Below, one piece after another: positions 6,848 through 62,968 of a stretch of DNA of 64,000 bases. The DNA lies in contig BDDD01000570.1 in NCBI GenBank assembly GCA_001972305.1, positions 124,001 to 188,000 of the forward strand, read 5' to 3'. Numbering within the stretch: the first letter of the stretch is position 1; each line of letters begins with the position of its first letter. The notes beneath the pieces were generated by a model. That model searched no databases. It was not told the DNA's origin and saw nothing but the letters and a program-made list of their open reading frames with translations. The stretch comes from Cephalotus follicularis. Its lineage: Eukaryota > Streptophyta > Magnoliopsida > Oxalidales > Cephalotaceae. The translations under genes were made by a program, and so were the position numbers.

Positions 6848-7345
6848 GCAATCCAGCCGATTGCCATGGATGAGTAGTCGACTTCCATGGGTTGAGTAGC
6901 CGACTGGTTCTTCAAACAACTCCAGAAACTGCAGGAACACATGATCCAGTCGACTGCCACAGGGGAGCAGTCGACTGCCAGACCAAGACAGCCGACTGCC
7001 GCAGGGGTCCAGTCGACTGCCATGGGTGCACAATTCAGGCAGTAGCTTCTGTATCATTTTCACACCTCATCCAGCCGACTGAAGCAGGGCACCAGTCAAC
7101 TGCGAGGGGGTCCAGTCGACTGCCAAGTAATCCAGCCGACTGTCACCAAATGTGCAATATCAGGCAGTAGCTTTTGTAAGTCCAATTTTAGCTCAACCAA
7201 CCGACTGGAACAGAGCACCGGCCGACTGCCAGGCTCCACCAGCCGACTTCCCAGAGGAAGCAGCTGACTGCCTCCATGTAACGGCTATATTTGAAATACG
7301 CGCCATCTAATCTAGCTGACTGCCCAAGGAATCCAGCCGACTGGA
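6848..7345. repeat. Array of TCGA-centred motifs with 21-bp period (SIRE LTR)
   Basis: At least 14 copies of CAGTCGACTGCC or a one- to two-base variant (CAGCCGACTGCC, CAGTCAACTGC). Core starts at 6950, 6971, 6992 and 7013 are exactly 21 bp apart. The bases between cores are not conserved. The array lies upstream of the TATA box, in U3. Confidence 0.9.
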
Positions 7346-7385
7346 TTATAACAGAACTTCAAAAATAGATCCGTTGGAGCACAAG

Positions 7386-7392
7386 TATAAAT
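7386..7392 (+). promoter_or_regulatory. TATA box of the SIRE-type LTR
   Basis: AAGTATAAATGCC on the plus strand, about 40 bp after the last palindromic motif. The downstream CATTC/TCATC-rich stretch to 7530 would be the start of the transcript. This suits the Sirevirus layout of a palindrome cluster just upstream of TATA. Confidence 0.6.
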
Positions 7393-7835
7393 GCCAAAGT
7401 GGATCATTCTTTGGTGCATCTCTTGCAATCAAAGTGAACATTCATTCTAGCTAACTCAAGTACAATTCCAAACATTCAAAGCATCAAAGAGATCACATCA
7501 AAGCAAATCACACTCACTAAAAAGCCTTTACATTTTACATTTCCTATCACTAAGAGCTTCGTGAGAAATGAGCGAAATTGTAAACAAATTCATTGTGAAT
7601 TTTTAATCTTCAAACACTTTATTTCACACATAAACAAGAGAGGTTGTCTCTTGTATTGCTCGGTTGGAGCAAATTTGTATTCGCTTGGTTGGAGCGAAGG
7701 GAGTTGAAGCTCGGTTGGAGTTTCAAGCCCGGATTGGGGCATACATAGTGAAATACTCAAGGGGAGGCCTTGGGGAGTGGACGTAGGCGGTTTGCCGAAC
7801 CACTATACATCTGTTTGCAATCTCTCTTCTAGACT

Positions 7836-8401
7836 TCCTACGGTGTCAAATGTGTCGACGTTTATGTTGAAAGCGTCGTCGGTTTGTTGTTTGGCGTTGA
7901 CGCTTTGATACATTGAAGATGAACTTGTTCGACGCTTTAGTTGTAAAGCGTCGACGGGAATGAGCAAGGCGTCGACGGTTTAGTACAGGTAGTTGTGGGA
8001 ATTGCTCTACGCATCTATGCGTCAGCGATAAAGTGTAAGGTGTCAATGCTTTGTAATTTTTGAGCTGAGCGTCGACGCTAACATGCAAGGCATCGACGCT
8101 TAAAGTGTGTCAAATAATTATTATCTCCTCTGTACCAAAGCGCTACAATTTTGCTCTGAACTGCAGGCGTTTTGTATGTAAGCGTCAACGGTTTCTTTGA
8201 AGGCGTCGACATTTTTCCCTGTTTTCTGCAAAAAATTGTCAATTCTTCGAGCTTTGATCTTCTTGTCCTCAATTCGAACAAATTTGACTAGTATTAATGC
8301 ATTTTGATCTTTTTAGCCGTTTACCTGAAAATCAAATAAGAGCAACCAAAGTAGTCTATTCAAAGCATAAAAACATCACAAACAGATCCTTAAAATTAAC
8401 A
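7836..8401 (-). repeat. LTR-like fragment with TCGA motif array
   Basis: On the minus strand the segment starts TGTTAATTTTAAGGATCTG at 8401, where it abuts the end of a truncated gypsy RT, and ends near the SIRE LTR. After about 180 bp comes TTTTTTGCAG and then a motif array (7855-8215) of GCGTCGACGCTTT-type units, many 21-22 bp apart. The order (LTR-like start, about 180 bp, TGCAG, array) resembles the neighbouring SIRE LTR, so a second truncated copia LTR is possible. I cannot assign it further. Confidence 0.5.
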
Positions 8402-8439
8402 CATTTTTATGCTAAACAACTGGAATTGACATGACCCGG

Positions 8440-9200: not shown

Positions 9201-9239
9201 TACTGAAGGTCATGACCTTCCCGTTGAAATCCACATGGG

Positions 9240-9610: not shown

Positions 9611-9699
9611 TCTTCCCATGATCTCTCCCTACCCCAGAAGGCGAGCTGGTGCTAGGACGGCCCTGATACTGCTGTCTAGAACCACTGCCTTACTGATAA

Positions 9700-12670: not shown

Positions 12671-12925
12671 AGCATCGACTGCTTCATCCAAAGCATCGAT
12701 GATTAGCGCCAAAGCGCCGACCCTTTGTGCTAGGCGCCGACGATTAAGGCGTTTTGCCTTAAACGTCGACGAGTGCAGTAAGCTTCAACCATTTTGTAAC
12801 ATATAAAGTGCCGACGCTTTAACTGAAATCGCCGACAGTTAAAGCCTAAGGATCAACCATTACATGCAAGAGTCTACGATTAGAGCGGGCAAAGTGGCGA
12901 CGCCTATAGTCCAAGCGTCGATGGT
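12671..12925. repeat. TCGA/CCGA motif array in E2 LTR
   Basis: Cores begin at 12675, 12696, 12717 and 12737 (steps 21, 21, 20), followed by further copies at 12766 and beyond, of the type AAGCGCCGACG or AAACGTCGACG. Many have lost a CpG by transition. The units match the arrays of the other families in spacing but not in linker sequence. Confidence 0.87.
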
Positions 12926-14713: not shown

Positions 14714-14769
14714 CTCGATCAACTCATCATTGACCGGCCTTGACATATGTGGACGCTAACACCACGATG

Positions 14770-25363: not shown

Positions 25364-27751
25364 TGTAACACCCGGTATTTTTCGTTTTGTAATATTTTGT
25401 CCTAAGATGTAATCTTATGTTGAATTAATAAAAGTTGGAGTTTTCGTCTCAATAATGTTTTCCAAACCCTAAATATTACTTTGGGAGAAAGGAATGTGTA
25501 TGTTAAACCAAAAATGGCGCAGTTTTGGTATAAACGCATCGATGTCTTTGGAAAGACGTCGACGCCTATGGGAGCAAAGGCGTACGTGAATGCATGTACA
25601 TGCACGTCGATGTAGGCAAAGACATAGACCCCCTCCTGTAAAAAGGGAAAAGGCATCGACGTCTATGGAAGACGTCGATGTCTTTGAAAAGAATATCAGT
25701 CACATTATGAACTGACAGAATAACATGCAATGGGCAACTTTTGAGGCACGAGAAAGAGACGTGTTGATCATGCATAATGGCCTCCTGACCTGCATGACTG
25801 AGGAAGGAGGACGAACATGACAAGTGTGGGTGTGCATGCAACCTGCAGAGAACTTGAGAAGGAAACAAAATGAAATGCATAATTTCACTGGGAAAGAGGG
25901 AGAGAACACGAGAGTGTTCATTGAATGCAGGCAGAAAGAGGGAGAGGGAGTCATCTGCATAAGAACAACCCCCTCCCCACCTCTCTCTCTCATTTAAAAC
26001 ACCAAAGGAAAGGAAGAGGAGGAAACCAGTGAGTGGGAGAAAGAGAGAACCACCATTGTTGAACTTGGATGGAGCTTGGAACTTGGAACTGGTGGCTTGC
26101 AGCAACGGGAAGGACCTAGAGGCTGCTGTAACCAGTTTGGAACGAAAAGAGGTGGACCTTCTAGTTCCTAACTTGAAACAACAAGGTAGGGGAAAGTGAT
26201 GATTCTTATACATGCATTTTGAGTTTTAAGATAATGAATGCCATTGATGAATTGCAAGTTAATGGGTGAATTGTAATCTCTGGACTTCTGTGATGACTAC
26301 TGTGATATACGCAGTAACCATGCATGTGTGATTACATGAATATTTGAACTAGTTGTGTAAAGGATGGATTTGATAATGGCTTGGTGTGTTAAAACTGTGG
26401 AGAAAACGTTCTGGGTTGGATAGACGTCGACGCCTACATAAAAACGTCGATGCCTTCGTGTGTAAATGTGAAATACATCGATGCCTGAGTAAAGAAATCG
26501 ATGCCTTTTCTGGGCATTGTAGAAAAATAATGTTACGCCTTCGTGTGTGAATGCGAAAGACATCGATGTCTTTGGGAAGACATCGACGCCTTTTCTGGGT
26601 ATTGCAAAACAGTAGTGTTTACTGTTGTTGGTGAACTGCCTTTGGTGATTGCATGTTTTATTCATGAAATGATGTTCTTGTTACATTCCCTGTTAGCCAG
26701 TAGCATGCCTTACACTTGAGAGAGTGAGATTTGTTTATATGAAGGATTAAAGGGTCGGATTCTACCCTCTAGAATCAAGATTCGCGAACTGATACGTCCT
26801 GGTATCATAAAGACATCGACGTCTTTGGAACGACATCGATGTCTTTGGTCCAAAAACGCCTGGGAATAACTGCATGAGTTGTTGGCGCCTTAGGGTAAAG
26901 ACATCGATGCCTTTGGGATAAACATCAACGCCTATCCCTCTGGTTGGAAGAGTTTCACTGGAATGGGACCCGTTAGACCCGAAATGACTCTAGAAACGAC
27001 CCTAAATGCATTCTAAGCATATGTTTGCATTATTACTGTACTGTGGATTGTATTGTGGTTGATTGTTAAAAAGTGTTAACCATTTCGAAAAGCTTACATG
27101 CTTATTAAAATGTATATTTGCCAAATACTTATATATTTTTTCAAAATGACTAGGGAAAGTATTTTCCAAAGACGGAGAAATGTTTAAAGGATTGGCTATA
27201 CAATCAAATTGTATTGTTTTAAGTTTATAACTTATTACAACCTATATATATATATATATTGTACTGCATCATAAGGCATTCATTGATGATACTCATTATC
27301 ATATACCTCGAACTATATTTATGACTTTATTCACTTAGCTGAGTGAGGACAAAGGCTAACCCCTACTGTAACAGATTGATGGAGTGGATATGATATGGAG
27401 CATGCAAGGAGACTTAAGGAGAATACTGAGTTGTTCTCTTTTTTTTTTTATGTACTGGTTTACTGAACAATGATCATGATAATTGGATTATTGTAACGTG
27501 GTTATTTCTTTCGTACTGTATTATCACACTCCGTTTATGGGCGATTGACTATGTTGTTGAGCTTTATACAAACTTGTTGGGTATCACGTAGTATGGGATG
27601 CATGATACATATTTAAATTTCAGCTCATTTCATGTTTTGCTTCCGCTATTGAAAGGTTTTTGTTTTTTCGTAATATCGCATAAGCTGAATTATGTTGTGT
27701 TGATTGCCTTACCGCTCTAATGTTGCCTTCATGGAAAATGGGGGCGTGACA
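25364..27751 (+). repeat. Chromovirus A 5' LTR
   Basis: It runs from TGTAACACCCGG to GGGCGTGACA, 2388 bp. It contains three clusters of TCGA-centred palindromes (25540-25690, 26415-26600, 26805-26940), a TGCATGTACATGCA palindrome at 25591-25604, a CT/GA-rich stretch near 25970-26040, a (TA) run at 27243-27259 and a conserved block GAGTGAGGACAAAGGCTAAC near the 3' end. Minus-strand frames of up to 215 codons across it are not kept open in the 3' LTR and are judged fortuitous. Confidence 0.93.
25540..26940. repeat. Paired TCGA palindromes, 20-bp spacing (A 5' LTR)
   Basis: About 16 motifs occur in eight pairs. Within a pair the TCGA cores are usually 20 bp apart (for example 26563 and 26583). 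The unit approaches the 18-bp palindrome AAAGACATCGATGTCTTT, which is perfect at 26556-26573 and at 33632-33649 in the 3' LTR. Variants such as GACGTCGACGCC alternate with it. Confidence 0.9.
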
Positions 27752-27754
27752 ACG

Positions 27755-27766: not shown

Positions 27767-27863
27767 ATATTCCATATATGCTTAGCTAGGATACTTTCCT
27801 TGGCAATCAATAATATGTTTTTCCTAAAGTCGTGACTAACCGTCATCCTTCTTATAGGAACAA

Positions 27864-28990
27864 ATGGACCGAAGGAGAACACGTCTAGGGCTAGAGCTGT
27901 TGGAGCCAATGCCCCTGAGGAAGCGAATATGCTGCAAGGAGTGAATGCCCCCCAAGATGATAGGGACCCGATGACCCGGATTGCGGATTATTTCCAGCAA
28001 CAGATGGCCTTTAATTTGGCTAACACGGAGGAGATGCGCCAATACTACGTGCAAGCTCGGCCGCAACATAGAGCTCCCGATCACTGCCCGAGAGAGGATA
28101 GTAACCAGTTTGGGAGGGACATTGAAAGGTTTATGAGACAGAATCCACCCAGTTTCCGGGGAGAACTTGATGCTACTGTGGCTGAGAGATGGCTGCAGGA
28201 CTTGGAGAAAATCTTTGAAGTAATGGGCTGTACTGAAACTCAGAAACTAAAATTTGCTGTATACCGCCTATGGGGTGAGGCCACTCATTGGTGGGATATG
28301 GTCAAGGAGAAATGGGAATCTCAAAGGCCTGACAGTACTTGGGGAAGATTCCAGGTAGAATTCTTGGAGACATATGTTCCTCGGTTGGAACAAGAGCGCC
28401 GGGAGACAGAGCTCTTGGAGCTGGGACAAGGGGAAATGATGGTGACCGAGTATCAAGCAAGGTTCATGGAGCTAGCCAGACACTCAGCTTATCTGGTAGC
28501 TGATGAAGTGAAGAAGATACGGAGATTTTTGAGGGGTCTGCGACCAGATCATCGGTCAAGGATCAGAGCTATGGAGTTGGGAACTTTTGTGGAGGTTGCT
28601 CAGAAGGCGAGATTGCTGGAGAGCATATCCAATGAAGACCGAGCAGAGAGGGCTCGAGCACAACAAAATAAACAGAGCCCGACGAGACCGGCTTCTTCAA
28701 AATTGCAAGGCAGTGGTTCTCCAACGAAGTCATCGAAGAACAAAACTGCACAGACTGTCACCCAGGGTACTCCTAGCCAAGGGAGTAATGCCAAAACTGG
28801 AGCTTGTTATCACTGTGGTCATAAAGGCCACTTACAGAAAGATTGCTGGAGGATGAATGGGTTGTGTTTGAGGTGCGGGGCATCTGGTCATTCCATGAGA
28901 GATTGCCCGAAGAGTCAGGCTACAGCACCTACTGGACCAGCTACTAGCAGCGGGGCCTTCAGGGCGAAGGGACACCGGCAAGGGCATTAC
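27864..28990 (+). pseudogene. Chromovirus A gag (fossil)
   Basis: The start at 27864 opens MDRRRTRLGLELLEPMPLRK in the first frame; the gag frame proper is recognisable from about 27930. The Retrotrans_gag core (WLQDLEKIFEVMGCTETQKL, LWGEATHWWDMVKEKW) lies at about 28100-28560. Two CCHC knuckles, CYHCGHKGHLQKDC (28804-28846) and [14 protein letters not shown] (28865-28906), are a Tekay/Del trait. Gag packages element RNA in the particle. It is followed by protease in the same element. Confidence 0.9.
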
Positions 28991-29029
28991 GAAAGGTAGA
29001 GTTTTTACCCTTTCACAGACAGAGGTTCC

Positions 29030-29480
29030 GGAGTCTACCTCAGTCATTGGAGGTATACTGTATATTTATGGTTTTTCTGCTAGAGTGTTGATGGACCCTG
29101 GAGCATCACATTCTTTTATTTCTTCACAATTTGCATCATACTTAGATGTAACACCCGACTGTATGCCATACACCTTGGATGTGAGCACACCTGCTAGAGC
29201 TTCCATGTATACAGATACCGTATATAGGAGTTGTGAGATGTCTATGTCAGGCATTTCCTTGTATGCAGATTTGATAGTATTGCCCATCCGTGACTTCGAT
29301 GTTATTTTGGGGATGGATTGGCTGTCAGCATATCATGCTTACATGGACTGCTACAACAAGACGGTTGATTTTTGTCTGTCCGATGGTACTATTTTCCAGT
29401 TTAAGGGAGATAAGGGGTTTTCTACACCAATTATATCCTTTATCCGTGCGTCGAGGTATCTCGAGAAAGGGTGCGAAGGA
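29030..29480 (+). pseudogene. Chromovirus A aspartic protease (fossil)
   Basis: The plus strand encodes [20 protein letters not shown] (active site DPGAS) near 29080, then [20 protein letters not shown] and the Tekay block [15 protein letters not shown]. It would release Gag and Pol proteins from the precursor. It leads into the linker [20 protein letters not shown] before RT. Confidence 0.9.
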
Positions 29481-29689
29481 TATCTTGCTCATGTAATTGA
29501 TCGAAGGAAGGAGAAAGGCTTGAGCTTGGAGGAAATCCCAGTTGTCTGTGAATTTCCAGATGTGTTTCCTGATGACTTGGGATCTTTGCCACCGAAGAGG
29601 AATATGGAGTTTGTTATCGATCTTATACCAGGTACAGCTCCTATTTCTAAAGCACCATACAGAATGGGTCCTACAGAATTGAGGGAACT

Positions 29690-30430
29690 AAAATTGCAGT
29701 TACAGGATCTGATCGATAAGGGTTTTATTCGACCCAGTGTTTCTCCGTGGGGTGCACCTATACTGTTTGTCAAGAAAAAGGATGGGTCGATGAGGCTCTG
29801 CATCGACTATAGAATGTTAAACAAGGCAACTATAGAGAACAAGTATACTTTACCTCACATCAAGGATTTGTTCGACCAGCTACAAGGGGCGAGAGTATTC
29901 TCGAATCTTGATTTGAGGTCAGGTTATCACCAGTTGAGGGTGAGGGAGGGAGATATTGAGAAGACTGCTTTCCAGACAAGGTACGGTCACTACGAGTTCG
30001 TTGTGATGCCTTTTGGTGTTACCAATGCACCGGCTGCGTTCATATCATTGATGAACGATGTGTTTCGACCGTACCTGGACCAGTTTGTCGTGGTGTTTAT
30101 TGACGACGTACTAGTGTACTCAAGGAGTGAGGAGGAGCATGCTTGCCATCTGAGGTTGGTTTTGCAGATTCTTCGAGAGCAGCAGCTGTATGCCAAATTC
30201 AGTAAGTGTGAATTTTGGCTTGACCGTGTGACCTTTCTTGGTCACATTGTATCTGGAGAAGGTTTGGCGGTGGATCCGTCCAAGACAGAGGTGGTACGAG
30301 ATTGGCCACAGCCGAAGAACGTGACAGAGGTACGCAGTTTTCTTGGCTTGGCAGGGTATTACAGAAGGTTTATCCAGAACTTTTCAAGGATAGCCGAGCC
30401 CTTGACTAGACTGACCCAGAAGAAGACCTT
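29690..30430 (+). pseudogene. Chromovirus A reverse transcriptase (fossil)
   Basis: The RT domain shows all core blocks: [78 protein letters not shown] and the catalytic block [14 protein letters not shown], then [19 protein letters not shown] and the thumb. FIDD is the usual form of the YxDD site in plant chromoviruses. It copies element RNA into cDNA in the particle. Confidence 0.95.
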
Positions 30431-30890
30431 GTTTATCTGGTATGAAGATTGTGAAGCTAGTTTCCATGAACTGAAGGATCGATTGGTTTCTGCTCCTATC
30501 TTGGCATTACCCGAGGGTAATGAGGGCTTTGCAGTCTATAGTGATGCATCGGGTAAGGGCTTGGGTTGCATGTTGATGCAATGAGGTAGAGTGATCGCTT
30601 ATGCTTCACGGAAGCTAAAGCCATACGAAGAGAATTACCCGACTCATGATCTTGAACTGGCAGCTATTATCTTTGCTCTTCAGAAATGGAGACACTACTT
30701 ATATGGAGCACAGTTTGAGATTTTTACTGATCACAAGAGTCTGAGGTACCTATTTTGTAAGGACACACTGAACATGAGACAACGCAGGTGGGTAGAATTC
30801 TTTAATGATTATGACTGCAGTATCCAGTACCACCCGGGGAAAGCGAATGTAGTCGCTGATGCCTTGAGACGCAAGGCTATGGTTTCCAGT
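30430..30890 (+). pseudogene. Chromovirus A RNase H (fossil)
   Basis: The domain contains [51 protein letters not shown] and the end [20 protein letters not shown]. The acidic residues of SDAS, HDLEL and TDHKSL are the expected catalytic positions. It would degrade the RNA strand of the RNA-DNA hybrid. Confidence 0.92.
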
Positions 30891-30929
30891 ACGATGGTGT
30901 CGCAATGGAAGATGTTATAAGACTTCCAA

Positions 30930-34497: not shown

Positions 34498-34674
34498 CGT
34501 AATATTTCCCATTTTCACATAACGTAATATTTCGATTCCCGATGTATCTTCATGTGTGAAATTAATAAGAATGTCAGAATTCAAACTTTGATGATGTTTT
34601 CCCATTTATAATGTTGGTATGTCAATGAAGGAATGTTAAAAGGTTACTTGGCTTAAGTATTGAAAAATTGGGCC

Positions 34675-37034: not shown

Positions 37035-37039
37035 AGTAT
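37035..37039. repeat. Target-site duplication of solo LTR C1, left
   Basis: AGTAT before TGTAATAGCC. The identical AGTAT is at 39851-39855 after GGGTGTTACA. Confidence 0.92.
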
Positions 37040-37304
37040 TGTAATAGCCTGTTTGTTCGTATATGTGTTTTACGGACTTTTTTATATGTTTGTTTTCGGG
37101 CTTTTAATTTTGTTTTGTTATAAAGCCCGGTTGCCCTTGTTTTGGGCCTATGTGTTTTGGGCTGTCTGATATCAGCCTGAATTTTGGATATGTTGGTATT
37201 TTAATGCAATGTTGGGTTGGACTTATGTTTGTATCTTTTTAATTTTATCAAACCTTATTTTACAATTTTGAAATTTATTAAAACAATTCCTTTTATTTTA
37301 AAAT

Positions 37305-48573: not shown

Positions 48574-51260
48574 TGTAACGCCCGGGATTTTCACCTAATG
48601 TAATATTTAATTCCCGATGTAACTTCATGTGTGAAATTAATAAGAATGGTGGAATACCCGACTTTGATGATGTTTTCCCATTTATAAAGTTGGTACGTGA
48701 GTGAAGGAATGTTAAAAGGTTAATTGGCTTAAGTATTGAAAAGTTGGGCCAAAGCGTCGACGCCATAACAGAAAGCGTTGACGCCTTGACAGCCAAAACG
48801 TACATTTTATTTAATGCTTAAAACATTGACTTAAGTGATAAGTGTCGACGCCAATAGAACAAATGCCTTGACCACTGACGCTTATAGATTAGCGCGGACG
48901 CTTTGCATCGAATATCAGACACCTGTAAACAGAAAGAAAACATGTTGCATGGAGGTGGGGAAATGCCACTCTTCAGGCACCTTCACATGCAGTTTATGAC
49001 GTGCTATGCATGCATTCAAATACCCTGACTTACCAGGACTGCATTGAGACTGTGAACAGGCCAGGTGGTTACATGAGGCAGCTACTAAAGGGATGGAAAG
49101 ACACATGGAGTGCCATGCAACCAGCTGTGAGAGAAAAGGGGACCTGCCATGCATGGAGAGAGAAACAAAACTCCAATCTGCATAAAACTCTCTCATTTCA
49201 TCCCTGCAACCGAATTCCTTGAAAAAGAAAAAGAAAACACAGAGAGTTAAAGAGAAACAAAGAAACCCAAGAGAGAAAGTGAGAGGAGGGAACCATTTTT
49301 CTTCATTGTTGAGCCACCATTGTTGGACCAAGCTTGGAGCTTGGAGTATACAGGGGTTGGAGCTGTTGGCTTGAACTGGGAGCGACCAAACCAAACCTGG
49401 GAGCTCAAGTTACTGGATTTTTGGACTTAAAGAGGTGGACATTAAGTTTCTAACTTGAAACTAGAGGTAGGGGAATTTTATATATGCTTATTTGAGTTCA
49501 CCAATGATGTTTTGTTCATAAGTGGAAACCACGAATCGCAACTACCGGTTTGATGTTGTGACATGCTTGATGTGTAAACTGTTCTTGCATGTTGATTCCT
49601 TAGTGTATACTCGACTGGATTACATGTTGGTTGAGGTTGAATCCTACTGGTTCATGTTGAATGAATGAGACGAAGTACTGGGCTCAAAACCGTCGGCGCT
49701 CATGAAGTAAGCGTCGACGCTTTGGACTGAAAAACATAAAATTATTACTGAATGTGCGTTAGACGTCGACGCTAAGGTAAAGCGTTGACGCCATGGTTCT
49801 TTCGTGTGGGTATGGACATGTTGTATGTTGACGCTTAAGGTTCATACCTTAAAGCGTCGACGCCTGGAATAAAGCGTTGGCGCCAGGGTTCCATACCTTG
49901 AGCATCGACACGTACGAGTTGAACATCGATGCCTAAAGACTACTGGAAAGCGCTGACGCTAAGTGTTGAGCGTCGACGCTTAGAGGACATAAGCGTCGAA
50001 GCCTTGAGGTTAAACGTCAATTCTTTAACACACTGTTTTGCGTATTTTTACGTAAATGACATACGATAACCCTGAATTGAGCCTAGACATGCATCGCACT
50101 TGAACTGTTGGTTCTATTGTAAATTTCAATGTGACTGATTTCTAAATGTGTTTTAGAAATACATGTATGATTTTGAATAAATCATTGTTTTGTATGAAAA
50201 TGTATATTTGACTAAATGTATATTTTCGAATGACTGGGGAAGAATTTCAAATGTTTGAGAACTGATTTTCTATACAAAGAAAATGCATTGTTCTAGTGTT
50301 TATGATTTTAAACGACTTGGAAAATAGACTGTTATATATATTGAACGTATATATTTGATCAAGTGATGATTTTTATTAATTTATTGACTTGGACTGTGAT
50401 TGTTACTGTTGTCGTACTAGCTGCGTGGTGGAGTTACCATGGTTGGCTAGTGGCGGGTTGACCCTAGGAGCCAGGAGTTGGCTGGGAAACTCACTGTGTT
50501 TGCTTAGCTGCCATGCTAAGTAACCTGTACTGTTGATATATATCGAGCCGTTCGGAACCGGGGCTGAGGTATGAGTGTGCGGTGTTGGGGCCAGGTGTTG
50601 GTGACGATCTCGTACGTACTGCTTGTATTGCCTGGTCCTTTGCCGACATTACTGTTTATCGTGTTGATGTAGCCCTTGCCAGGTTGCACATGTACTATGA
50701 ATATACATATAAATATCTATAGGTATATATTGTTATCTATACTATACTGCATCATTGTGCATACACTCATGACATTCATTATTTTTACCCTGAACTGTTT
50801 ATATAAACTTCTCTACTTAGCCGAGTGAAGACAAAGGCTAACCCCCCTACACTTTCTGATTGATGCAGTGGATCGGACATGGATCAGCATGGATAAGGAT
50901 CAAATTGTTATAATGTTGTTTATCGGACTTGTATTTTTCTGGATTATGTTGAGTTGTCTCTGTATTAAGTGGTTGTTGTACACCGTACTTTTGGTTTACG
51001 TGTTTTATGTTGTTAATGGATAAGGTTATGATCATGCTACGTTTTGAGGGCAGTCAACAATGAAGTATTGTATTCAATTAAGTATTGTGGTAACATGTAG
51101 TATGTGATGCACGTTACGGTTGTTAATTCGGCTTATATTTATGCTTCCGCAAGTTATTGTCGATATTGAAAGGTTTAAATTTTATCGCAAATTATATAAG
51201 TCAGATTCATATGTTAATTGCCACCACCATATATGTTGTTTTTGGAAACGGGGTGTGACA
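48574..51260 (+). repeat. Chromovirus B 3' LTR
   Basis: 2687 bp from TGTAACGCCCGGG to GGGTGTGACA. It holds motif clusters at 48750-48910 and 49685-50025, and the conserved block GACAAAGGCTAACCCCCCTA near 50828 shared with the LTRs of A and D. Copia H sequence resumes at 51261. Confidence 0.9.
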
Positions 51261-52272: not shown

Positions 52273-52848
52273 ATGGCCTCCCCACCGGTGACCGGTGGAG
52301 AGGCGAACAACCCGCCCTGTACCGACCCTTCTCAGCCTCCTTCCAACGTGCCTTCATATTCCACAGCGCCTATACCCCAACCCAAACTTTCCTACAAGTC
52401 AACACTAGGCTGCCCCGCGTCAGCGCCATTGATCCCTTTATCCCAACTCCCCGATGTACCAAAAATCTCCATCAACCCCAAATCACCTTCTTCCTTCAAC
52501 GGCAAACCTCTTGTGAACTTGTCCCCACCGGAAGTGAAATTAGCGTCAGAGTTCCACTCTCTCAAACTCATTGCCAAGTTCAGTCTCCTTCGACCCCCAG
52601 ATGATCTTTTTGAGCATCATGTGAACTCGACTTGGGGGTTACAACAATCGGCTACAGTAAGCTTGATTGACCCAAAACACTTTCTCATTCACCTACAATC
52701 TGAAGACGATTTTGCTAGAGCTTGGTCCAGGGAGACAAAAATCTTTGACAACCGAAGATTCCTGCTTCTTTGTTGGACTCCCGACTTTACCAAGCGGAAA
52801 GATTCAAGCTTCTCGGTCACGTGGCTTCGCCTTCTAGGCCTGCCCCTT
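52273..52848 (+). pseudogene. LINE ORF1 (DUF4283), 5' part, interrupted by element D
   Basis: The start at 52273 opens MASPPVTGGEANNPPCTDPS, a Pro/Ser-rich N-terminus. A DUF4283 domain begins at about residue 90 (FHSLKLIAKFSLLRPPDDLF, TWGLQQSATVSLIDPKHFLI, EDDFARAWSRETKIFDNRRF, LLCWTPDFTKRKDSSF). The same reading frame resumes after element D at 62974. DUF4283 with a zinc knuckle marks ORF1 of plant L1-type LINEs, an RNA-binding chaperone-like protein. No RT (ORF2) lies in the window. A host gene of the same domain family is less likely, since the frame holds stops further on. Confidence 0.78.
52844..52848. repeat. Target-site duplication of chromovirus D, left
   Basis: CCCTT before TGTCACACCCCG. 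The identical CCCTT is at 62969-62973. Confidence 0.93.
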
Positions 52849-55565
52849 TGTCACACCCCGTTTTTCCCATTTAAAGACAACATATAAAGTGGTAAGGCAA
52901 TAAACATAATATAATCCAGCTCATGCAAATTTACCAATAAATAAATTTCTCGATAGCGGAAGCATTCATGTAAAAGCTGAATTAAACATACATCACGCAT
53001 CCCATACTACGTGATGCCCAACAAGTTTATAATAAAACCCAACCTCATTGCGATCGCCCAAAAACGGAGCGTGAAAATACAATACGAGATGAAAATAAAT
53101 CATGTTACAATAATCCAATTTAACATGACCAATGTCCATTAACCCAATACATAACAATAAGAGAAACAACTTGGTCTTCTCCTTAGGTCTCCTTGCATGC
53201 TCCATATCAAACCCACTCCATCAATCTATTACAGTAGGGGGTTAGCCTTTTTCCTCACCCGGCTAAGTGAAAAACTCATAAATACAGTCCGAGTCATATG
53301 ATAATGAGTATCATGAATGAATGCATTATGATACAATATGACATGTAATTTTCACAATAATTATATCTCCGTATATACATATAAAAATATATGCATGTCC
53401 ACAATACAAGTATAACCTCATAAGTTATATCAACACAAGCGGCAAGTGTGTCCCAAAAGGAACTAGACAAGCAAGTCGTCATAACTGTCGCCACCTCCTG
53501 GCCCCAACGTCATGCACTCTTACCCCATCCCCGTTTGAGAACGACTTTGGAGCAAGTCCTCCGTATGTTGCTTAGCACGGCGGCTAAACCAACAGCAGGT
53601 TACTAGCACAGCGAGTGAGTAATCAACAAGTTATTAGCACAGTGGCTAATAATCAACAAGCACAAGCATTGCACAATACAAGTCAAGCAATAAAATATAA
53701 TTACTTGATCACATATATTTGTTTCAAATATATTACTCCGTTCACAAGTTGTGATAAGTTATAAAACCTAAAACAATACATTTGATTGTATAATCAATCT
53801 TTGAAAACATTTCTCCGTCATTGGAAAATACTTTCCCGATCATTTCGAAAATATATAAAATCATATGTTGACAAATATGCATTTTCATACAAAATGATTA
53901 TAATAATCATACAAGCTTTTCAAAATGGTTAACACTTTTTGAAATCAACCATAATGCAATTCACAGTAATAATGCAAACATATGCTCAGAATGCATCTAG
54001 GATCGTTCCTAGAGTCGTTTCGGGTCTAACGGGTCCCATTTGAGTGAAGTTCCATTAAATAGGGAGATAGGCGTCGATGTCTATCCCTAAGGCGCCGACG
54101 ACTTTACCCTAAGGCGTCGATCCTATGTTCAGTTATTCCCAGGCGTTTTTGGATCAAAGACGTCAATGCCTTTCTAAAGAGATCGATGTCTTTATGATAT
54201 CAGAAGGTATCACTTCGCGAGTCTGGATTCTGGAGGGAAGAATCCAGCCCCTAAATCCCCATATAAGCGAAACTTAACCTCTCAAGGCGTAAGAAAAGCT
54301 ACTGGTTAACAGAGTATGTAACCAGAACGTTAATTCGTAACCAACCATGTAATCACAAGTGGATAAATTGCCATCTGCAATAAACGTTACAGTTCTGTGA
54401 TTTCGCAGAAAAGGCGTCGATGCTTTTACTCAAACATCGATGTTTTTTTTTATACGAACACGAAGATATCGACGTCTTCAGGTAGACGTCGACGTTTATC
54501 CAACCCAAAACATTTTCTCCATAGTTTTAGCACAGCAGGCCATCATCCAAATCATCCCTACGTAAACCAATTCACATACTCATGTAATTTGCACATGCAT
54601 GTTCACTCCGTACATTACATTAGTCATCACAACAAGTCCAGAATCACAATTCAACCATTAACATGCAATTCATCATGTTATTCACTAACTTAAAACCCAA
54701 AATGCATGTATAAGCTTATCACTTTCCCCTACCTTGTTGTTCCACGTTAGGAACTGGAAAGTCCACCCCTTTAAGTTTCTGGCCACAGCAGCTCCAAGAT
54801 CCTCTCAGCAACTGCTACCCACGAGCTCCAAGTTCTAGCTCCAATCAAGCTCAACAATGGTGGCTCTCACACTCACTGGTTTTCTTTTCTTTCTTTCCTT
54901 TAGTGTTTTAAACGAGAGAGAGAGATAAAGGAGGAGGTGTTTTATTATGGCAGGAACCCTCCCCTTTTCTCTTTGCTTCACAGATAACCACACCCTCACA
55001 TGCCCACCCTCTTCACTCTCTGGCTTTGGCTCATTTCCCTTATCCTTTCTGCAGGTTGCAGGTGAAGATGGTGTATTCTCTTGCATGCACCAGGTGAGAG
55101 GCACGTTTTGAGCATGCCTGGCAACACACAAGCATGATGAACACGTCCCATTATGCATGTTAAGGCGTGTGGATAACGCCTCAAAGATCCCTCATTGCAT
55201 GTTACTCTGTCAGTGTATAACGTGACAGATGTTCTTTACAAAGGCGTCGACGTCTTTCCTTAGACGTCAATGTCTTTTCCTTTTTCACCAGAAGGTGTCG
55301 ATGCCTTCTCTCTATATCGACGTGCATGCCCATGCATTCACGTGTACCTCGGTTCCCATAGGCGTCGACGTCTTTCCAAAGACATCGACACATTTCTTCC
55401 AAAACTGCGCCGTTTTAAAGTTTAACTCACACATTTCTTTCCCTAATCAATATTTAGGGTTTGGAGACATCTTTTGAGTTTGAAATTTCAACATTCTCAT
55501 TAATTCAAGTTTAAGATTACATCTTAAAACGAAATATTACAATTAGGAAAATACCGAGTGTTACA
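52849..55565 (-). repeat. Chromovirus D 3' LTR
   Basis: TGTCACACCCCG to GAGTGTTACA, 2717 bp. It contains motif clusters (54065-54200, 54410-54500, 55240-55395), a 31-bp direct repeat (53600-53660) built on TAGCACAG...AATCAACAAG, and the conserved block shared with A and B near 53214-53267 (minus strand). Short frames inside carry no known domain. Confidence 0.93.
53600..53660. repeat. 31-bp direct repeat in D LTR
   Basis: Two units, each starting TTAYTAGCACAG and ending AATCAACAAG, at 53600-53630 and 53631-53660. The 5' LTR has the same pair at 61009-61069. A related single unit precedes them. Confidence 0.75.
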
Positions 55566-55579
55566 TCCACCCCTCCTTC
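55566..55579 (-). promoter_or_regulatory. Chromovirus D polypurine tract
   Basis: The minus strand reads GAAGGAGGGGTGGA, identical to element A, directly before the 3' LTR. Confidence 0.88.
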
Positions 55580-55610
55580 AAGAAATTTCGTCCTCGAAAT
55601 TAACACAATA

Positions 55611-57000
55611 CTAAAACAAACGTGGGTAACGCTCTCGGATGTCATCCTCACGTTCCCAAGTCGCTTCTTCCGACCGATGAAATTTCCACTGAACCTTTAC
55701 CATCGGAATGGTTCGGTTCCTTAATACTTGTGTCTTCCAATCCAAGATTCTCACGGGTGACTCCTCGCAGGAAAGATCATCCCTCACCGTAATCGAGTCA
55801 TAATCCAGGACATGTGATGGATCCAGGATATATCCTCGTAGCATCGATACATGGAAGATGTCATGTACACTTGACAATGTAGGAGGCAAGGCTAGCTGAT
55901 ATGCTACCTCCCCAACCCTCCCCAGAATCTCAAAAGGACCAATGTAGCGTGGCGCTAACTTGCCCTTCTTCCCGAATCTTTGCACTCCTTTCCACGGAGA
56001 TACCTTCAAAAACACGTAATCCCCAACATTGAAGGTTAAAGGCCTTCTCTTCACATTTTCGGCATAGCTCTTTTGCCGACTCTGCGCTGCAAGCAACTTT
56101 TCTCTGATGAACTTGACTTTCTCCGAAGTCTCCTCCACCAAATCTGACCCAAGCAGTGGTCGTTCACCAACCTCGTCCCAACAGACGGGTGACCTACACT
56201 TTCTCCCATACAGTGCTTCGTATGGAGCCATACCAATACTCGGGTGATAGCTGTTATTGTATGAAAACTCTATCAGAGGGATATGGTCTTCCCATGTTCC
56301 ACCAAAATCGATCACACAAGCCCGAAGCATATTTTGGATGGTACGCTCTGACTGTCCGTCTGTCTGAGGGTGGAAAGCAGTACTGAGATTCAATCTCATT
56401 CCGAAGGCTGTCTGGAATCTCTTCCAGAAGTTGGAAGGGAAGATCGAATCCCTATCGCAAACAATGCTCACCGGAACACCGTGCAGCCTCACAATCTCCT
56501 TCACATACAATCGAGCCAACTTGCTCACAGAATCAGTGACATGTGTGGGCAAGAAGTGTACTGATTTGGTGAGTCTATCAACAATAACCCACACGGCATT
56601 ATGACGATGCCTAGTCAGTGGAATTCCAGAAACAAAGTCCATCGTAATGTGTTCCCATTTCCACTCCGCCACTGGTAATGACTGTAACAGTCCCGCAGGT
56701 CTTTGGTGCTCGGCCTTGACCCTCTGGCAAGTCAAACACTTCGTGACATATTCAGCAATCTCACGCTTCATGCCGGGCCACCAGTAAGTTTTCTTCATAT
56801 CTTGGTACATCTTGGTGCTACCAGGATGAATACTGTACAGATATTTATGAGCCCCGTAGAGTAACTCATCCTTCAGTCTTGGTTCATTCGAAAGACATAC
56901 ACGTCCCCGATATCTCAGAATACCATCAGCATGTACCCGAAAATCGGATTCCGAGTCAAGGTTCTCCCGAATTCGTTGCAACTCTGGGTCATGTGGTTGT
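55611..57000 (-). pseudogene. Chromovirus D integrase with chromodomain (fossil element)
   Basis: HHCC module ([40 protein letters not shown]), DDE core ([75 protein letters not shown]), basic linker ([20 protein letters not shown]) and C-terminal chromodomain ([20 protein letters not shown]...). The chromodomain ends pol at 55611. Same layout as in A and B. Function: cDNA insertion, with likely heterochromatin targeting. Confidence 0.94.
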
Positions 57001-57009
57001 GCATCCTTG

Positions 57010-58500
57010 ATGTGATCAAGTAACACTGGCTGGACTCGCATGTCGGCTAGGAAGATCTCCGGTGACTGATTGAACGGAGACCATTCTTGGAAGTCTTCCA
57101 ACATCTTCCATTGCGACACCATTGTACTGGCAACCATATCCTTGTGGCTCAAGGCATCAACGACTACATTCGCTTTCCCCGGGTGGTACTGGATACTGCA
57201 GTCATAATCATTAAAGAACTCTACCCACCTGCGCTGTCTCATGTTCAGTGTGTCTTGACAGAACAGGTACCTCAAACTCTTATGATCGGTAAAGATCTCA
57301 AACTGCGCCCCATAGAGATAGTGTCTCCACTTCTGAAGGGCGAAAACAATAGCTGCAAGTTCAATGTCATGAGTCGGGTAGTTTTCTTCATACGGCTTCA
57401 GCTTCCGCGAAGCATAAGCGATCACCCTTCCTCGTTGCATCAACATGCAACCCAAGCCCTTACCCGATGCATCACTATAGAATGCAAAGCCCTCATTACC
57501 CTCGGGTAATGCCAAGATAAGAGCGGAAACATACCGATCCTTCAGTTCACGAAAACTAGCTTCACAGTCTTCATCCCAAACAAACAAGGTAGTCTTCTGG
57601 GTCAGTCTAGTCAAGGGCTCCGCTATCTTTGAAAAGTTCTGTATAAACCTCCGATAATAGCCTGCCAAGCCAAGAAAACTACGTACCTCTGTCACATTCT
57701 TCGGCTGTGGCCAATCTCGCACCACCTCAGTCTTTGACCGATCCACCGCCAAACCTTCTCCAGATACATTGTGACCAAGAAAGATCATATGGTCAAGCCA
57801 AAATTCGCACTTACTGAATTTTGCATACAACTGGTGCTCTCGGAGTATCTGCAAAGCCAACCTCAGGTGGCAAGCATGCTCTTCCTCACTCCTTGAGTAT
57901 ACAAGTACGTCGTCAATAAACACAACGATAAACTGGTCCAGGTACGGTCGAAACACATCGTCCATCAATGACATGAAAGCAGTTGGTGCATTGGTAACAC
58001 CAAAAGGCATCACTAGGAACTCGTAGTGACCGTATCTTGTCTGGAAAGCAGTCTTCTCAATATCTCCTTCCCTCACCCTCAACTGGTGATATCCCGATCT
58101 CAAATCAAGTTTCGAGAACACTCTCGCCCCTTGCAACTGGTCGAACAAATCCTCAATGTGAGGTAAAGGATACTTGTTCTTGATAGTTGCCTTGTTCGAC
58201 ATCCTGTAATCGATGCAGAGCCTCATCGACCCATCCTTTTTCTTGACAAATAGTACAGGTGCACCCCACGGTGAAACACTGGGTCGAATGAAACCCTTAT
58301 CGATCAGGTCCTGTAACTGTAATTTAAGCTCTCTCCATTCTGCAGGAGCCATTCTATACGGTGCTTTAGAAATAGGAGCTGTACCTGGTATGAGATCGAT
58401 AACAAACTCCATATTCCTTCTCAGTGGCAAAGATCCCAAGTCATCAAGAAATACATCTGGAAATTCACACACCACTGGGATCTCCTCCAGGCTCAAGCCC
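57010..58500 (-). pseudogene. Chromovirus D RT and RNase H (fossil element)
   Basis: [82 protein letters not shown]. RNase [61 protein letters not shown]. The pol protein of this element (RT through chromodomain) is 961 residues, about the usual Tekay length without the protease. It shares nearly all core blocks with A. Confidence 0.95.
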
Positions 58501-58589
58501 TTCTCATTCCTCCGATCAATTACATAAGCAAGATACCCTTCACATCCTTTCTCTAGATACTTCGATGCACGGATGAAGGATACAATCGG

Positions 58590-59030
58590 CGTAGAAAACC
58601 CCTTGTCTCCCTTAAACTAGAAAGTAGTACCATCGGGCAGACGAAAATCAACCGTCTTGCTGTAGCAGTCCATGTAAGCATGATGTGCTGACAGCCAATC
58701 CATTCCCAAAATAATATCGAAGTCACGGATAGGCAACGCTATAAAATCCGCATACAAGGAAATGCCCGCCATAGACACCTCACAACCCCTATATACAGTA
58801 TCTGTATACATGGAAACTCCGGCAGGTGTGCTCACATCCAAGGTATGTGGCATACAGTCTGGCGTTACATCTAAACATGATGCAAAATGTGATGATATGA
58901 AAGAATGTGATGCTCCAGGGTCCATCAATACTCTAGCAGCAAAACCATAAATGTACAGTGTACCTCCAAAGACTGAGGTAGACTCCGGAACCTCTGTCTG
59001 TGAAAGAGTAAAAATTCTACCTTTCGCAAC
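58590..59030 (-). pseudogene. Chromovirus D aspartic protease (fossil element)
   Basis: The minus strand gives [20 protein letters not shown] with the active-site form DPGAS, then [20 protein letters not shown] and HAYMDCYSKTVDFRLPDGTT. The same region in A is nearly identical. It lies between gag and RT. Confidence 0.9.
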
Positions 59031-59039
59031 GCCCTTGCC

Positions 59040-60146
59040 GGTGTCCCTTCGCTGTGAAGGCCCCGCTGCGGCCCCGCTGCTACTAACTGGTCCAGTAGGT
59101 GCTATAGACAGACTGTTCGGGCAATCTCTCACGGAATGGCCAGATTCCCCATACCTCAAACACAGTCCATTCATCCTCCAGCAATCCTTCTGTAAGTGGC
59201 CCTTACGACCACAACGATAGCAAGCTCCAGTTCCCGCATTACTCCCCTGACTAGGAGTACCTTGTGTGGCAGTCTGTCCAGATCTGTTCTTCGATGATTT
59301 AGTCGGAGAACCACTGCCTTCCCATTTCGAAGATGCTGGTCTCATCGGGCTCTGTTTATTTTGTTGCGCTCGGGCCCTCAATGCTTGGTCCTCACTGGAT
59401 ATGCTTTCCAGCAGCCTCGCTTTTTGAGCGACCTCCAAAGAAGTACCCAGCTCCATACCCCTGATCCTCGACCGAAGATCCGGTCATAAACCCTTCAGAA
59501 ATCTCCGTATCTTTTTCACATCATCGGCTACCATATAAGGTGAATGTCTGGCTAGCTCCATAAACCTGGCCGGGTACTCGGCTACAGTCATCTCCCCTTC
59601 ACGTAACTCAAGAAGCTCTATCTCCCTCCGTTCTTGCTCAATCAGGGGTACATAGGAGTCGAGGAACTCTGTTTGGAACCTCTCCCATGTAGCATCGAGT
59701 CCAACTGACTCCCACATCACCTTGACCATCTCCTACCAGTGAGTGGCCTCTCCCCATAGATGGTACACAGCAAACTTCAGCTTCTAAGTATCGGTACAGT
59801 CCATTACTTCAAAAATCTTCTCCATGTCTTGAAGCCATCTTTCAGCAATCGTAGCATCAAGTTCTCCAAGGAAACTAGGTGGATTCTGTCTCATAAACCT
59901 TTCGATGTCCCTTCCAAACTGACTACCATCCTCCCCCGGGCAGTGATCGGGAGCTCTATGTTGCGGTCGAGCTTGCGCGTAGTACTGGCGCATCTCCTCC
60001 GCATTGGCCATATTAAAGGCCATCTGTTGCTGGAAGTAGTCCGCAATCCGGGCCATCGGGTCCCTATCATCTTGGAGGACATTCACTCCCTCGGGGACAT
60101 TGGCTCCAATAGCTCTAGCCCTTCCACGTGTTCTCCTTCGGTACAT
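59040..60146 (-). pseudogene. Chromovirus D gag (fossil element)
   Basis: The start at 60146 opens MYRRRTRGRARAIGANVPEG. Retrotrans_gag blocks FMRQNPPSFLGELDATIAER and WLQDMEKIFEVMDC are followed by FLDSYVPLIEQERREIELLE and the two-knuckle region (first knuckle CYRCGRKGHLQKDC near 59180-59222). It matches A gag closely. It is broken. Confidence 0.88.
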
Positions 60147-60242
60147 TTGTTCCTATAAGAAGAATGACGGTTAGTCACGTCTTTAGGAAAACAATTTATT
60201 GATTGCCAAGGGAAGTATCCTAGCTAAGCATATATGGAATAT

Positions 60243-60254
60243 GCTCTGATACCA
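60243..60254 (-). promoter_or_regulatory. Chromovirus D primer-binding site
   Basis: The minus strand reads TGGTATCAGAGC, an exact initiator-Met complement, three bases inside the 5' LTR. Confidence 0.92.
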
Positions 60255-60257
60255 CGT

Positions 60258-62968
60258 TGTCACACCCCGTTTTTCCCATTTAAAGACAACATATAAAGTG
60301 GTAAGGCAATCAACATAATATAATCCAGCTCATGCAAATTTACCAATAAATAAATTTCTCGATAGCGGAAGCATTCATGTAAAAGCTGAATTAAACATAC
60401 ATCATGCATCCCATACTACATGATGCCCAACAAGTTTATAATAAAACCCAACCTCATTGTCGATCGCCCAAAAACGGAGCGTGAAAATACAATATGAGAT
60501 GAAAATAAATCATGTTACAATAATCCAATTTAACATGACCAATGTCCATTAAACCAATACATAAAAATAAGAGAAACAACTTGGTCTTCTCCTTAGGTCT
60601 CCTTGCATGCTCCATATCAAAACCACTCCATCAATCTGTTACAGTAGGGGGTTAGCCTTTGTCCTCACTCGGCTAAGTGAAAAACTCATAAATACAATTC
60701 GAGTCATATGATAATGAGTATCATGAATGAATGCATTATGATGCAATCTGACATGTAATTTTCACAATAATTATATCTCCGTATATACATATAAAAATAT
60801 ATGCATGTCACAATACAAGTATAACCTCATAAGTTATATCAACACAAGCAGCAAGTGTGTCCCAAAAGGAACCAGACAAGCAAGTCCTCATAACCATCGC
60901 CACCTTCTGGACCCAACGTCATGCACTCTTACCTCATCCCCGTTTGAGAACGGCTTTGGAGCAAGTCCTCCATATGTTGCTTAGCACGGCGGCTAAACCA
61001 ACAGCAGGTTACTAGCACAGCGGCTGAGTAATCAACAAGTTATTAGCACAGCGCCTAATAATCAACAAGCACAAGCATTGCACAATACAAGTCAAGCAAT
61101 AAAATATAATTACTTGATCACATATATTTTTTTAAAATATATTACTCACTTCACAAGTTGTGATAAGTTATAAAACTTAAAACAATACATTTGATTGTAT
61201 AATCAATCTTTTAAAACATTTCTCCGTCATTGGAAAATACTTTCCCGATCATTTCGAAAATATATAAAATCATATGTTGACAAATATACATTTTCGTACA
61301 AAATGATTATAATAATCATACAAGCTTTTCAAAATGGTTAACACTTTTTGAAATCAACCGTAATGCAATTCATAGTAATAATGCAAACATATGCTCAGAA
61401 TGCATCTAGGATCGTTCCTAGAGTCGTTTTGGGTCTAGCGGGTCCCATTCGAGTTCCATTAAACAGGGAGATAGGCGTGTATGTCTATCCCTAAGGCGTC
61501 GACGTCTTTACCCTAAGGCATCGATCCTATGTACAGTTATTCCTAAGCGTTTTGGGATCAAAGACATCGATGCCTTTCTAAAGACATCGATGTCTTTATG
61601 ATATCAGAAGGTATCAGTTCGCGAGTCTGGATTCTGGAGGGAAGAATCCAGCCCCAAAATCCTCATATAAGCGAAACTTAACCTCTCAAGGCGTAAGAAA
61701 AGCTACTGGTTAACAGAGTATGCAACCAGAACGTTAATTCGTAACCAACCATGTAATCACAAGTGGCTAAATTGCCATCTGCAATAAACGTTATAGTTCT
61801 GTGATTTCCCAGAAAAGGCGTCGATGCTTTTACTCAAACATCGATGCCTTTTTTTATACGAACACGACGACATCGACGTCTTTAGGTAGACGTCGACGTT
61901 TATCCAACCCAGAAAATTTTCTCCCTAGTTTTAGCACAGCTGGCCATCATCCAAATCATCCATACGTAAACCAATTCACATACTCATGTAATTTGCACAT
62001 GCATGTTCACTCCGTACATTACATTAGTCATCACAACAAGTCCAGAATCACAATTCAACCATCAACATGCAATTCATCATGTTATTCATTAACTTAAAAC
62101 CCAAAATGCATGTATAAGCTTATCACTTTCCCCTACCTTGTTGTTCCACGTTAGGAACTGGAAAGTCCACCCCTTTAAGTTTCTGGCCACAGCAGCTCCA
62201 AGATCATCTCAGCAACTGCTACCCACGAGCTCCAAGTTCTAGCTCCAATCAAGCTCAACAATGGTGGCTCTCACACTCACTGGTTTTCTTTTCTTTCTTT
62301 CCTTTAGTGTTTTAAACGAGATAGAGAGATGAAGGAGGAGGTGTTTTATTATGGCAGGAACCCTCCCCTTTTCTCTTTGCTTCACAGATAACCACACCCT
62401 CACGTGCCCACCCTCTTCACTCTCTGGTTTTGGCTCATTTCCCTTCTCCTTTCTGCAGGTGGCAGGTGAAGATGGTATATTCTCTTGCATGCACTAGGTG
62501 AGAGGCACGTTTTGAGCACGCTGGCAACACACCAGCATGATCAACACGTCCTATTGTGCATGTTAAGGTGTCTGGATAATGCCTCAAAGATCCCCCATTG
62601 CATGTTACTCTGTCAGTGTATAACGTGACAAATGTTCTTTACAAAGGTGTCGACGTCTTTCCTTAGACGTTGATGTCTTTTCCTTTTTCACCAGAAGGTG
62701 TCGATGCCTTCTCTCTATATCGACGTGCATGCCCATGCATTCACGTGTACCTCGGTTCCCATAGGCGTCGATGTCTTTCAAAAGGCATCAACGCGCTTCT
62801 TCCAAAACTGCGCCGTTTTCAAGTTTAACTCACACATTTCTTTCCCTAATCAATATTTAGGGTTTGGAGACATCTTTTGAGTTTGAAATTTCAACATTCT
62901 CATTAATTCAAGTTTAAGATTACATCTTAAAACGAAATATTACAATTAGGAAAATACCGGGTGTTACA
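60258..62968 (-). repeat. Chromovirus D 5' LTR
   Basis: TGTCACACCCCG to GGGTGTTACA, 2711 bp, about 98% like the 3' LTR in the compared part. Motif clusters are at 61470-61600, 61815-61900 and 62645-62795. A perfect 20-bp palindrome lies at 61579-61598. Confidence 0.94.
61470..62795. repeat. TCGA palindrome clusters (D 5' LTR)
   Basis: Paired cores 20 bp apart, as in A: for example the pairs at 61565-61590, 61818-61850, 61870-61895 and 62648-62672. The best unit is TAAAGACATCGATGTCTTTA (61579-61598), a perfect palindrome. Confidence 0.9.

Follow-up and report, generated by a model that had tools for sequence, protein, structure and literature searches.

Palindromes repeated within the long terminal repeats (LTRs) of plant retrotransposons have been described in Sireviruses by Bousios et al. 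(2010, PMC2829016), whose account of these motifs, in the part on which we draw, gives each element 8-32 copies of a palindrome specific to it, located in the upper half of the LTR and 5' of the TATA box, further copies upstream of the ENV gene in ENV-bearing members, and a CGG-CCG core in 12 of 13 elements, and terms the motif Sirevirus-specific. Here we analyse palindromic arrays in Cephalotus follicularis, both in a 64 kb stretch of contig BDDD01000570.1 (positions 124,001 to 188,000, hereafter the window), which is packed with LTR retrotransposons, and in the 1.58 Gb of genome that was scanned. Two TCGA-core classes were distinguished, M1, CAG(T/C)CG(A/G)CTG (CAGYCGRCTG), and M2, AAAGRCRTCGAYGYCTTT, and sites of both are preferentially placed 19-22 bp from each other, which is close to two helical turns.

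The M1 arrays are similar to the palindromic repeats reported for Sireviruses in 2010, as these are presented in the passages of PMC2829016. The SIRE-type copia LTR of the window carries 14 copies of one palindrome (6857-7340) with a TATA box 49 bp 3' of the last M1 site, and in L029, a relative 72% like this LTR, the corresponding distance is 50 bp; TCGA-centred palindromes like M1 and M2 are also found among the Sireviruses, in Vitis (CGGTCGACCG) and in Tnd-1 (ACAATCGATTGT). The systems differ in that the core here is CAGYCGRCTG or AAAGRCRTCGAYGYCTTT and not CGG-CCG, in that the step is strict here, whereas the motif section of PMC2829016 states no spacing, and in that the arrays are not confined to copia elements, M1 being present in both gypsy LTRs of L022 and 5' of the gypsy gag of L009. 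VANC targets in VANDAL transposons are likewise family-specific short motifs repeated in non-coding transposon DNA, with a specificity that shifts among relatives, but their motif is YAGTATTAY, the element carries its own VANC gene, and the passages of PMC5735166 describe no two-turn phase. A text search of the literature with the M1 decamer gave no transposon paper by title among the 20 matches listed of 29. In human T-cell leukaemia virus type 1 (HTLV-1), the unique 3' (U3) part of the LTR also contains 21-bp repeats as control units, which differ from those described here in that they serve the virus's own transactivator and have a core of the cAMP-response element type. In the literature, including the parts considered of PMC2829016 and PMC10760457, we found neither a phase of 20-22 bp nor gypsy LTRs described as carrying the motif; Bousios 2016 may bear on this point. 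A change of palindrome class is not described in the passages of PMC2829016.

The initial annotation of the window had proposed one loose TCGA palindrome with variants, repeated every 20-22 bp, and its cores at 6950/6971/6992/7013, 12675-12737 and 38213-38319 are indeed present there; the TCGA core stood, but the single motif resolved into two. The motif survey covered 270 kb, comprising the window, 20 stretches of 10 kb, L029 and L031. Between CAG and CTG flanks (n=100) the core was TCGA in 37 cases, CCGA in 17, TCGG in 10, TCAA in 2 and CCGG in 1, while between RCR and YGY flanks (n=773) it was TCGA in 177, TCAA in 29 and TTGA in 23, and extension of the flanks of the RCR...YGY sites with a TCGA core gave M2. 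Relaxed matrices for M1 and M2 found 108 and 238 sites, respectively, against 21 and 0 in the reversed-sequence control.

Counting distances between TCGA tetramers without reference to either motif, we observed in the window 17 pairs at 20 bp and 12 at 21 bp, where distances of 25-60 bp (39-45 left out) average about 2.4 pairs each, and in the 200 kb of the 20 stretches 21, 33, 35 and 17 pairs at 19, 20, 21 and 22 bp, against about 5 per distance. Taken together (264 kb), the 19-22 bp range holds 143 pairs, compared with 26 in the 15-18 range and 13 in the 23-26 range. Of the remaining 15 palindromic tetramers, for which the ten highest counts were considered, only ACGT showed another marked peak, with 33 pairs against 6 and 7, which probably stems from GACGTC within M2 sites; AATT gave 122 pairs at 19-22 bp against 101 and 95 in the flanking ranges. 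Across the genome, exact M1 pairs numbered 38,192 at 19-22 bp, 236 at 23-26, 7,682 at 27-28 and 61,181 at 12-42 (136, 1, 13 and 202 for the reversed pattern), and M2 pairs 118,261 at 19-22 bp among 175,216 at 12-42 (reversed, 285 and 436); from base composition alone, some 835 M1 decamers and 0.01 pairs would be expected. Scans of viral contigs gave 0 matches, both for an M1 pair in phase and for a longer pattern of paired M2 sites.

At the scale of single arrays in the 270 kb, M1 pairs up to 60 bp apart fall at 19-22, 27-28, 40-43 and 48-50 bp with one at 52, and none was found with the relaxed matrix at 5-18, 23-26 or 29-39 bp; M2 pairs fall mainly at 19-22 bp; smaller numbers occur at 25, 28-34 and 37 bp, and further groups lie around 42, 45, 51 and 71. 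The nearest neighbour stands at 18-22 bp for 87 of the 108 M1 sites and 158 of the 238 M2 sites. In correction of the initial annotation, M2 mostly occurs paired or alone, forming 69 runs of two, 4 of three and 2 of four, with 80 single sites. Phased TCGA palindromes are real and genome-wide.

Shared ancestry of the families was addressed by clustering 48 arrays of the window and the 20 stretches (15 M1, 33 M2) by their flanks after masking the sites, which yielded 11 clusters, certain joins being due merely to overlap of flanks (for example 6857 with 7972). With one array per cluster, the 19-22 bp step occurs in 6 of 6 M1-bearing and 6 of 7 M2-bearing clusters and a 23-26 bp step in none. When the TCGA positions of these 11 arrays were jittered by up to 25 bp in either direction, 5.1 ± 2.2 pairs at 19-22 bp were obtained, against the 30 observed, a number reached in 0 of 1000 jitters; the same arrays have 0 pairs at 15-18 and 0 at 23-26 bp. 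To speak of seven unrelated families, as the initial annotation in effect did, is too wide a claim: many LTRs of the window are related, and M2 stands mostly in kindred chromovirus LTRs. Chance or local CpG density as the cause of the phase was placed lower after the TCGA distance counts, the tetramer comparison and the jitter test.

The phase is common to both superfamilies. The copia LTR is widespread in the genome (5,637 first-look candidates, of which 40 were scored), and on contig C2437 the Ty1/copia domains gag_pre-integrs, Pol_BBD and SH3_retrovirus sit between two copies of it. In L022, a 1.9 kb repeat pair (1673-3542 and 8104-10000, the end of the stretch; 96% alike) has an M1 array in each copy and encloses minus-strand matches to gypsy integrase, RNase H, reverse transcriptase (RT) and gag. 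The M1 groups of L009 (2887-2948 and 4100-4149) lie 5' of a gypsy gag (1036-422), with an LTR-end-like signature at 1465, between them and the gag, and L009 has a short similarity to the end of the LTR of chromovirus D of the window (68% over 180 bp). The flanks of the C1 array of the window are 74% like the L022 gypsy LTR over 351 bp. Between the copia LTR and that of the L022 gypsy element, similarity is restricted to pieces of at most 52 bp, almost all within the array, and the two LTRs fall in separate clusters once the sites are masked. Since M1 is present in a copia LTR and in gypsy LTRs that are similar to it only within the array, the same decamer and the same 21 bp step occur in both superfamilies, M1 itself in one copia family plus gypsy LTRs, which bears out the common phase near two helical turns proposed at the outset.

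The class of palindrome can also differ between LTRs with alignable flanks. In blastn comparisons outside the array, M1 LTRs matched the M2-bearing LTR of chromovirus B in pieces of 69-82% (L011) and 70-74% (L013), and an alignment of the three is co-linear 3' of the array, within which L011 and L013 have M1 and B has M2; identities over all aligned columns, arrays included, are 214/440 between L011 and the B LTR designated B3, 317/640 between L013 and B3, and 406/499 between L011 and L013. L013 was assigned by LTR similarity only, because its neighbouring gypsy gag has the opposite orientation, and since the array LTRs of L013 and L010 could not be linked to the coding domain beside them, the change of class was not dated from RT and gag trees. 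A mixed array is found in L031 (1369-1547), in the order M1, M1, weak M2, full M2 and four M1, with steps of 21, 22, 20, 51, 21, 19 and 21 bp. The palindrome class thus appears to behave as a module, gypsy LTRs with alignable flanks bearing M1 or M2 and L031 both.

Constraint on the sites was assessed in the LTRs of chromoviruses A and D, taking as site columns every column covered by a motif hit in any of the four copies. Between A and D, site columns differ in 38 of 234 (196 agree) and the rest in 383 of 1524 (1141 agree). Between the two LTRs of one element, sites agree in 255 of 270 and 214 of 235 columns and the rest in 1538 of 1608 and 2395 of 2479, so that in total 36 of 505 site columns differ against 154 of 4087 others, and sites change more than the rest after insertion but less between families; the contrast between site change between families and within elements has p = 0.0008. 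This points to selection acting in the transposing lineages, sites being kept between families but not after insertion. Among forward-strand M1 pairs at the 19-22 bp step with TCGA as the right-hand core, the left-hand core was TCGA in 38,192, CCGA in 17,548, TCGG in 11,402, TTGA in 1,518 and CCGG in 538, while about 5,240 CCGG would be expected if the halves were independent (17,548 x 11,402 / 38,192). M1 tolerates one T-to-C change, both together being rare. As decay by deamination would favour TTGA, the scarcity of TTGA indicates that the core CpG is kept, and judged from these sequences the retention of CpG and half-site is far from neutral decay. In the LTR of A, a separate stretch of 88 alignment columns (~26530-26615) has no counterpart in D and resembles a copy of the neighbouring M2 pair, which looks like the gain of a whole pair by segmental duplication.

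We consider it moderately probable that the arrays function as enhancers within the U3 of plant LTRs, predicted to bind dyad-symmetric host factors and held at two helical turns by cooperative binding. Each palindrome would be a putative site for a dyad-symmetric regulatory protein, most likely encoded by the host, and the 20-22 bp spacing would be maintained because proteins seated at this distance contact one another, or a shared co-activator, and their binding is cooperative. A dyad-symmetric binder had already been put forward in the initial annotation, and the conservation of the sites between families, together with a CpG and half-site retention far from neutral decay, argues for it as the likeliest cause. 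Regarding its identity, GYCGAC can be read on one or both strands of M1, and changes by which it is lost from both are rare. The CBF/DREB site (C-repeat/dehydration-responsive element, CRT/DRE) has the core RYCGAC, which M1 thereby contains. As M1 obeys the GYCGAC-on-one-strand rule, an AP2/ERF factor of the CBF/DREB group would be the first candidate for M1; M1 differs from known CBF/DREB sites by its symmetric CAG/CTG flanks, which it has by definition, and M2 does not fit. In the parts considered of a machine-learning study of plant LTRs (PMC11656987), DREB1 sites are reported as LTR predictors and DREB/CBF motifs in stress-activated transposons.

The alternative step of 27-28 bp in M1 arrays would leave space for a further site, often CGTG, which is present in 27 of 40 distinct linkers among the 27-28 bp M1 pairs listed (shuffled mean 4.4); the seven linkers of this length in the local sample are mixed. 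The further motif shared by the 27-28 bp linkers among the matches listed is near TCTGATGCGTGTTGTGGA. CAGGG occurs in 7 of 44 distinct linkers among the 19-22 bp M1 pairs listed (shuffled mean 0.6). As to location, 68 of 72 M2 sites and 15 of 23 M1 sites of the window lie in LTRs, the remaining eight M1 sites being the seven of C1 and one at 29155, and the arrays of the copia LTR and L029 sit 5' of the TATA box. In the LTR of A, M2 sites end with one at offset 1561, and a TATA follows at 1765, about 200 bp on.

Palindromes also precede frames related to PF20167 ('Transposase_32'). M1 sites at 787 and 808, 21 bp apart, stand before such a frame in L033 (2-718), a locus in which no RT turned up and whose PF20167 protein found no convincing relative in the PDB (best match only E = 0.045). 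The frame of L031 (1667-2332), 65% identical to that of L033, has six M1 and two M2 sites in front of it, and in L018 six M2 sites (7709-7912) lie 5' of a distant relative (7253-6813; 25% identity), both frames being from tblastn only. By analogy with the Sirevirus copies upstream of ENV, the PF20167 frame would be a gene in the ENV position, L018 being less clear because a gypsy element comes after it, and the same switch would probably drive this gene too.

Several observations weigh against the enhancer explanation. The genome-wide pair counts take in many copies of the same families, and an ascertainment bias remains in the A-D site columns and likewise in the within-element comparison. 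The initial annotation placed all cores on one DNA face, which agrees with steps of 20-22 bp, about two turns, but not with those of 27-28 bp, about 2.6 turns. M2 breaks the RYCGAC rule, ATCGAT cores being common, as is ACATCGATGT among the M2 matches listed. In addition, most of the other 13 of the 15 listed M1 arrays have no clear, well-placed TATA, and in L022 the TATA is 108 bp past the array on the strand opposite to the coding frames.

A small chance remains with the arrays being targets of silencing or anti-silencing, at which an element-encoded, VANC-like factor or a host factor would set DNA methylation, the class shifting with its specificity. The difference of class between gypsy LTRs with alignable flanks and the PF20167-related frames behind the palindromes in L033, L031 and L018 would suit this explanation, as would the family-specific short motifs in tandem repeats that are reported as VANC targets in the passages of PMC5735166. 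However, A and D encode gag-pol with no further Pfam-recognised gene in the frames tested, none of four frames from the A and B LTRs had a Pfam match, and a term search of the text of the VANC paper (PMC5735166) finds no palindromes or spacing.

To an action of the palindromes as RNA, on the model put forward for maize Sireviruses, we assign a low probability; neighbouring copies would form hairpins in the transcript of the 3' U3, and these would either supply small-RNA silencing or escape it. Small RNAs map to the palindrome clusters of maize Sireviruses (PMC10760457 in the part considered, citing Bousios 2016), and predicted RNA folding of four array stretches, compared with shuffled sequence, gave z = -2.64, -0.79, -2.66 and -4.92, with -0.34 for one control stretch. 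RNA structure requires no 19-22 bp step, though, as any tandem palindromes fold, and in sense M2 sites of six window LTRs, which are related and hence not independent, A-C outnumbers G-T by 18 to 8 at -1/+1 and by 26 to 7 at -3/+3. A-C is unpaired and the G.U-compatible combination is the rarer, contrary to RNA pairing. On this A-C excess and the generic folding of tandem palindromes, RNA pairing was ranked lower as the main constraint.

Common descent or LTR exchange only, with one ancestral array passed between copia and gypsy and still undecayed, seems to us very improbable. CAGGG linkers are common to the copia LTR, L029, the L022 gypsy LTR and L024 (which clusters with L009), and many arrays cluster by flanks, but divergence has affected the linkers and neither the step nor the palindrome, and the similarity of copia and L022 gypsy LTRs is nearly all in the array, with no clustering once sites are masked. 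The least probable is a mechanical, functionless origin by replication slippage or unequal exchange of a 21 bp unit, which the initial annotation had entertained as keeping the period: linker identity is rather higher within arrays (0.45 for 55 pairs) than for the 722 pairs drawn from different arrays (0.30), and the extra M2 pair of A resembles a copy of the adjoining pair, yet directly adjacent linkers are little alike (0.34, 13 pairs), steps of 23-26 bp are 160 times rarer although those in use range over 19-22, CpG retention and the half-site rule need selection, and M2 is chiefly paired or single and not in runs.

The features of the window are collected in Table 1, where LTR pairs A, B, D and E and the abutting copies F were delimited by self-comparison of the window. 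The frames of A, B and D contain Ty3/gypsy domains with SH3_Tf2-1 and weak Chromo matches. The true 3' end of the 5' LTR of A may lie near 27752, the limit of its similarity to the D LTR. Pair E has zero M1 or M2 sites and is a natural negative family inside the window. The F copies lie head to tail within element B without an internal region, and a frame at 52228-52887, adjoining element D, matches DUF4283.

Table 1. Palindrome arrays, LTRs and coding frames in the 64 kb window (coordinates of the window)
Feature	Position	Strand	Remarks
Copia LTR (SIRE-type)	6687..7826	+	bounds by similarity to seven other copies: start common to 7/7, end to 4/7
M1 array of copia LTR	6857..7340	+	14 sites: 9 CCGA, 4 TCGA, 1 TCAA; steps mostly 20-21
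TATAAAT	7386..7392	+	49 bp 3' of final M1 site of copia LTR
Weak M2-like cluster	12675..12814	.	cores 12675, 12696, 12717, 12737, plus 12766, 12811
LTR pair E	14248-16929 / 21980-24616		~2.7 kb
Chromovirus A 5' LTR	25364..27243	+	M2 at 25539/25559, 25656/25675, 26427/26447, 26478/26498, 26563/26583, 26816/26836, 26904/26925
Chromovirus A gag-pol frames	27836..32395	+	gag, protease, RT, integrase zinc domain, SH3_Tf2-1, weak Chromo
Chromovirus A 3' LTR	32441..34319	+	15 M2 sites, positions matching 5' LTR
Chromovirus B 5' LTR	34511..37043	+	two M2 sites only: 34702, 35813
M1 array C1	38213..38392	.	7 sites by matrix (3 TCGG, 4 TCGA)
LTR-like copies F	43990-45239, 45232-46509	.	direct, abutting; three M2 each; one relaxed M1 in second
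Chromovirus B 3' LTR	48587..51072	+	M2 at 48757, 48778, 49714, 49766, 49857, 49926, 49996
Chromovirus D 3' LTR	52848..55568	-	13 M2 sites, pairs for the most part
Chromovirus D gag-pol frames	55611..59483	-	RVP_2, RVT_1, RNase H, integrase, SH3_Tf2-1, weak Chromo
Chromovirus D 5' LTR	60257..62971	-	11 M2 sites

A wider proposal, which we hold tentatively and at somewhat less than even confidence, is that copia and gypsy elements of this one plant genome share an enhancer grammar, in which two palindrome classes, interchangeable and set on a two-turn lattice, would switch within LTRs that are otherwise still alignable and mix even in a single array, unrelated elements thus being read by the same host factors. 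If the enhancer explanation is true, the arrays would provide a countable and testable code for retrotransposon activation in a plant, in terms of which protein binds and at what spacing, and would explain the joint activity of families that have no LTR similarity outside the array. The change of class within related LTRs would then represent transposon regulatory specificity shifting by modules.

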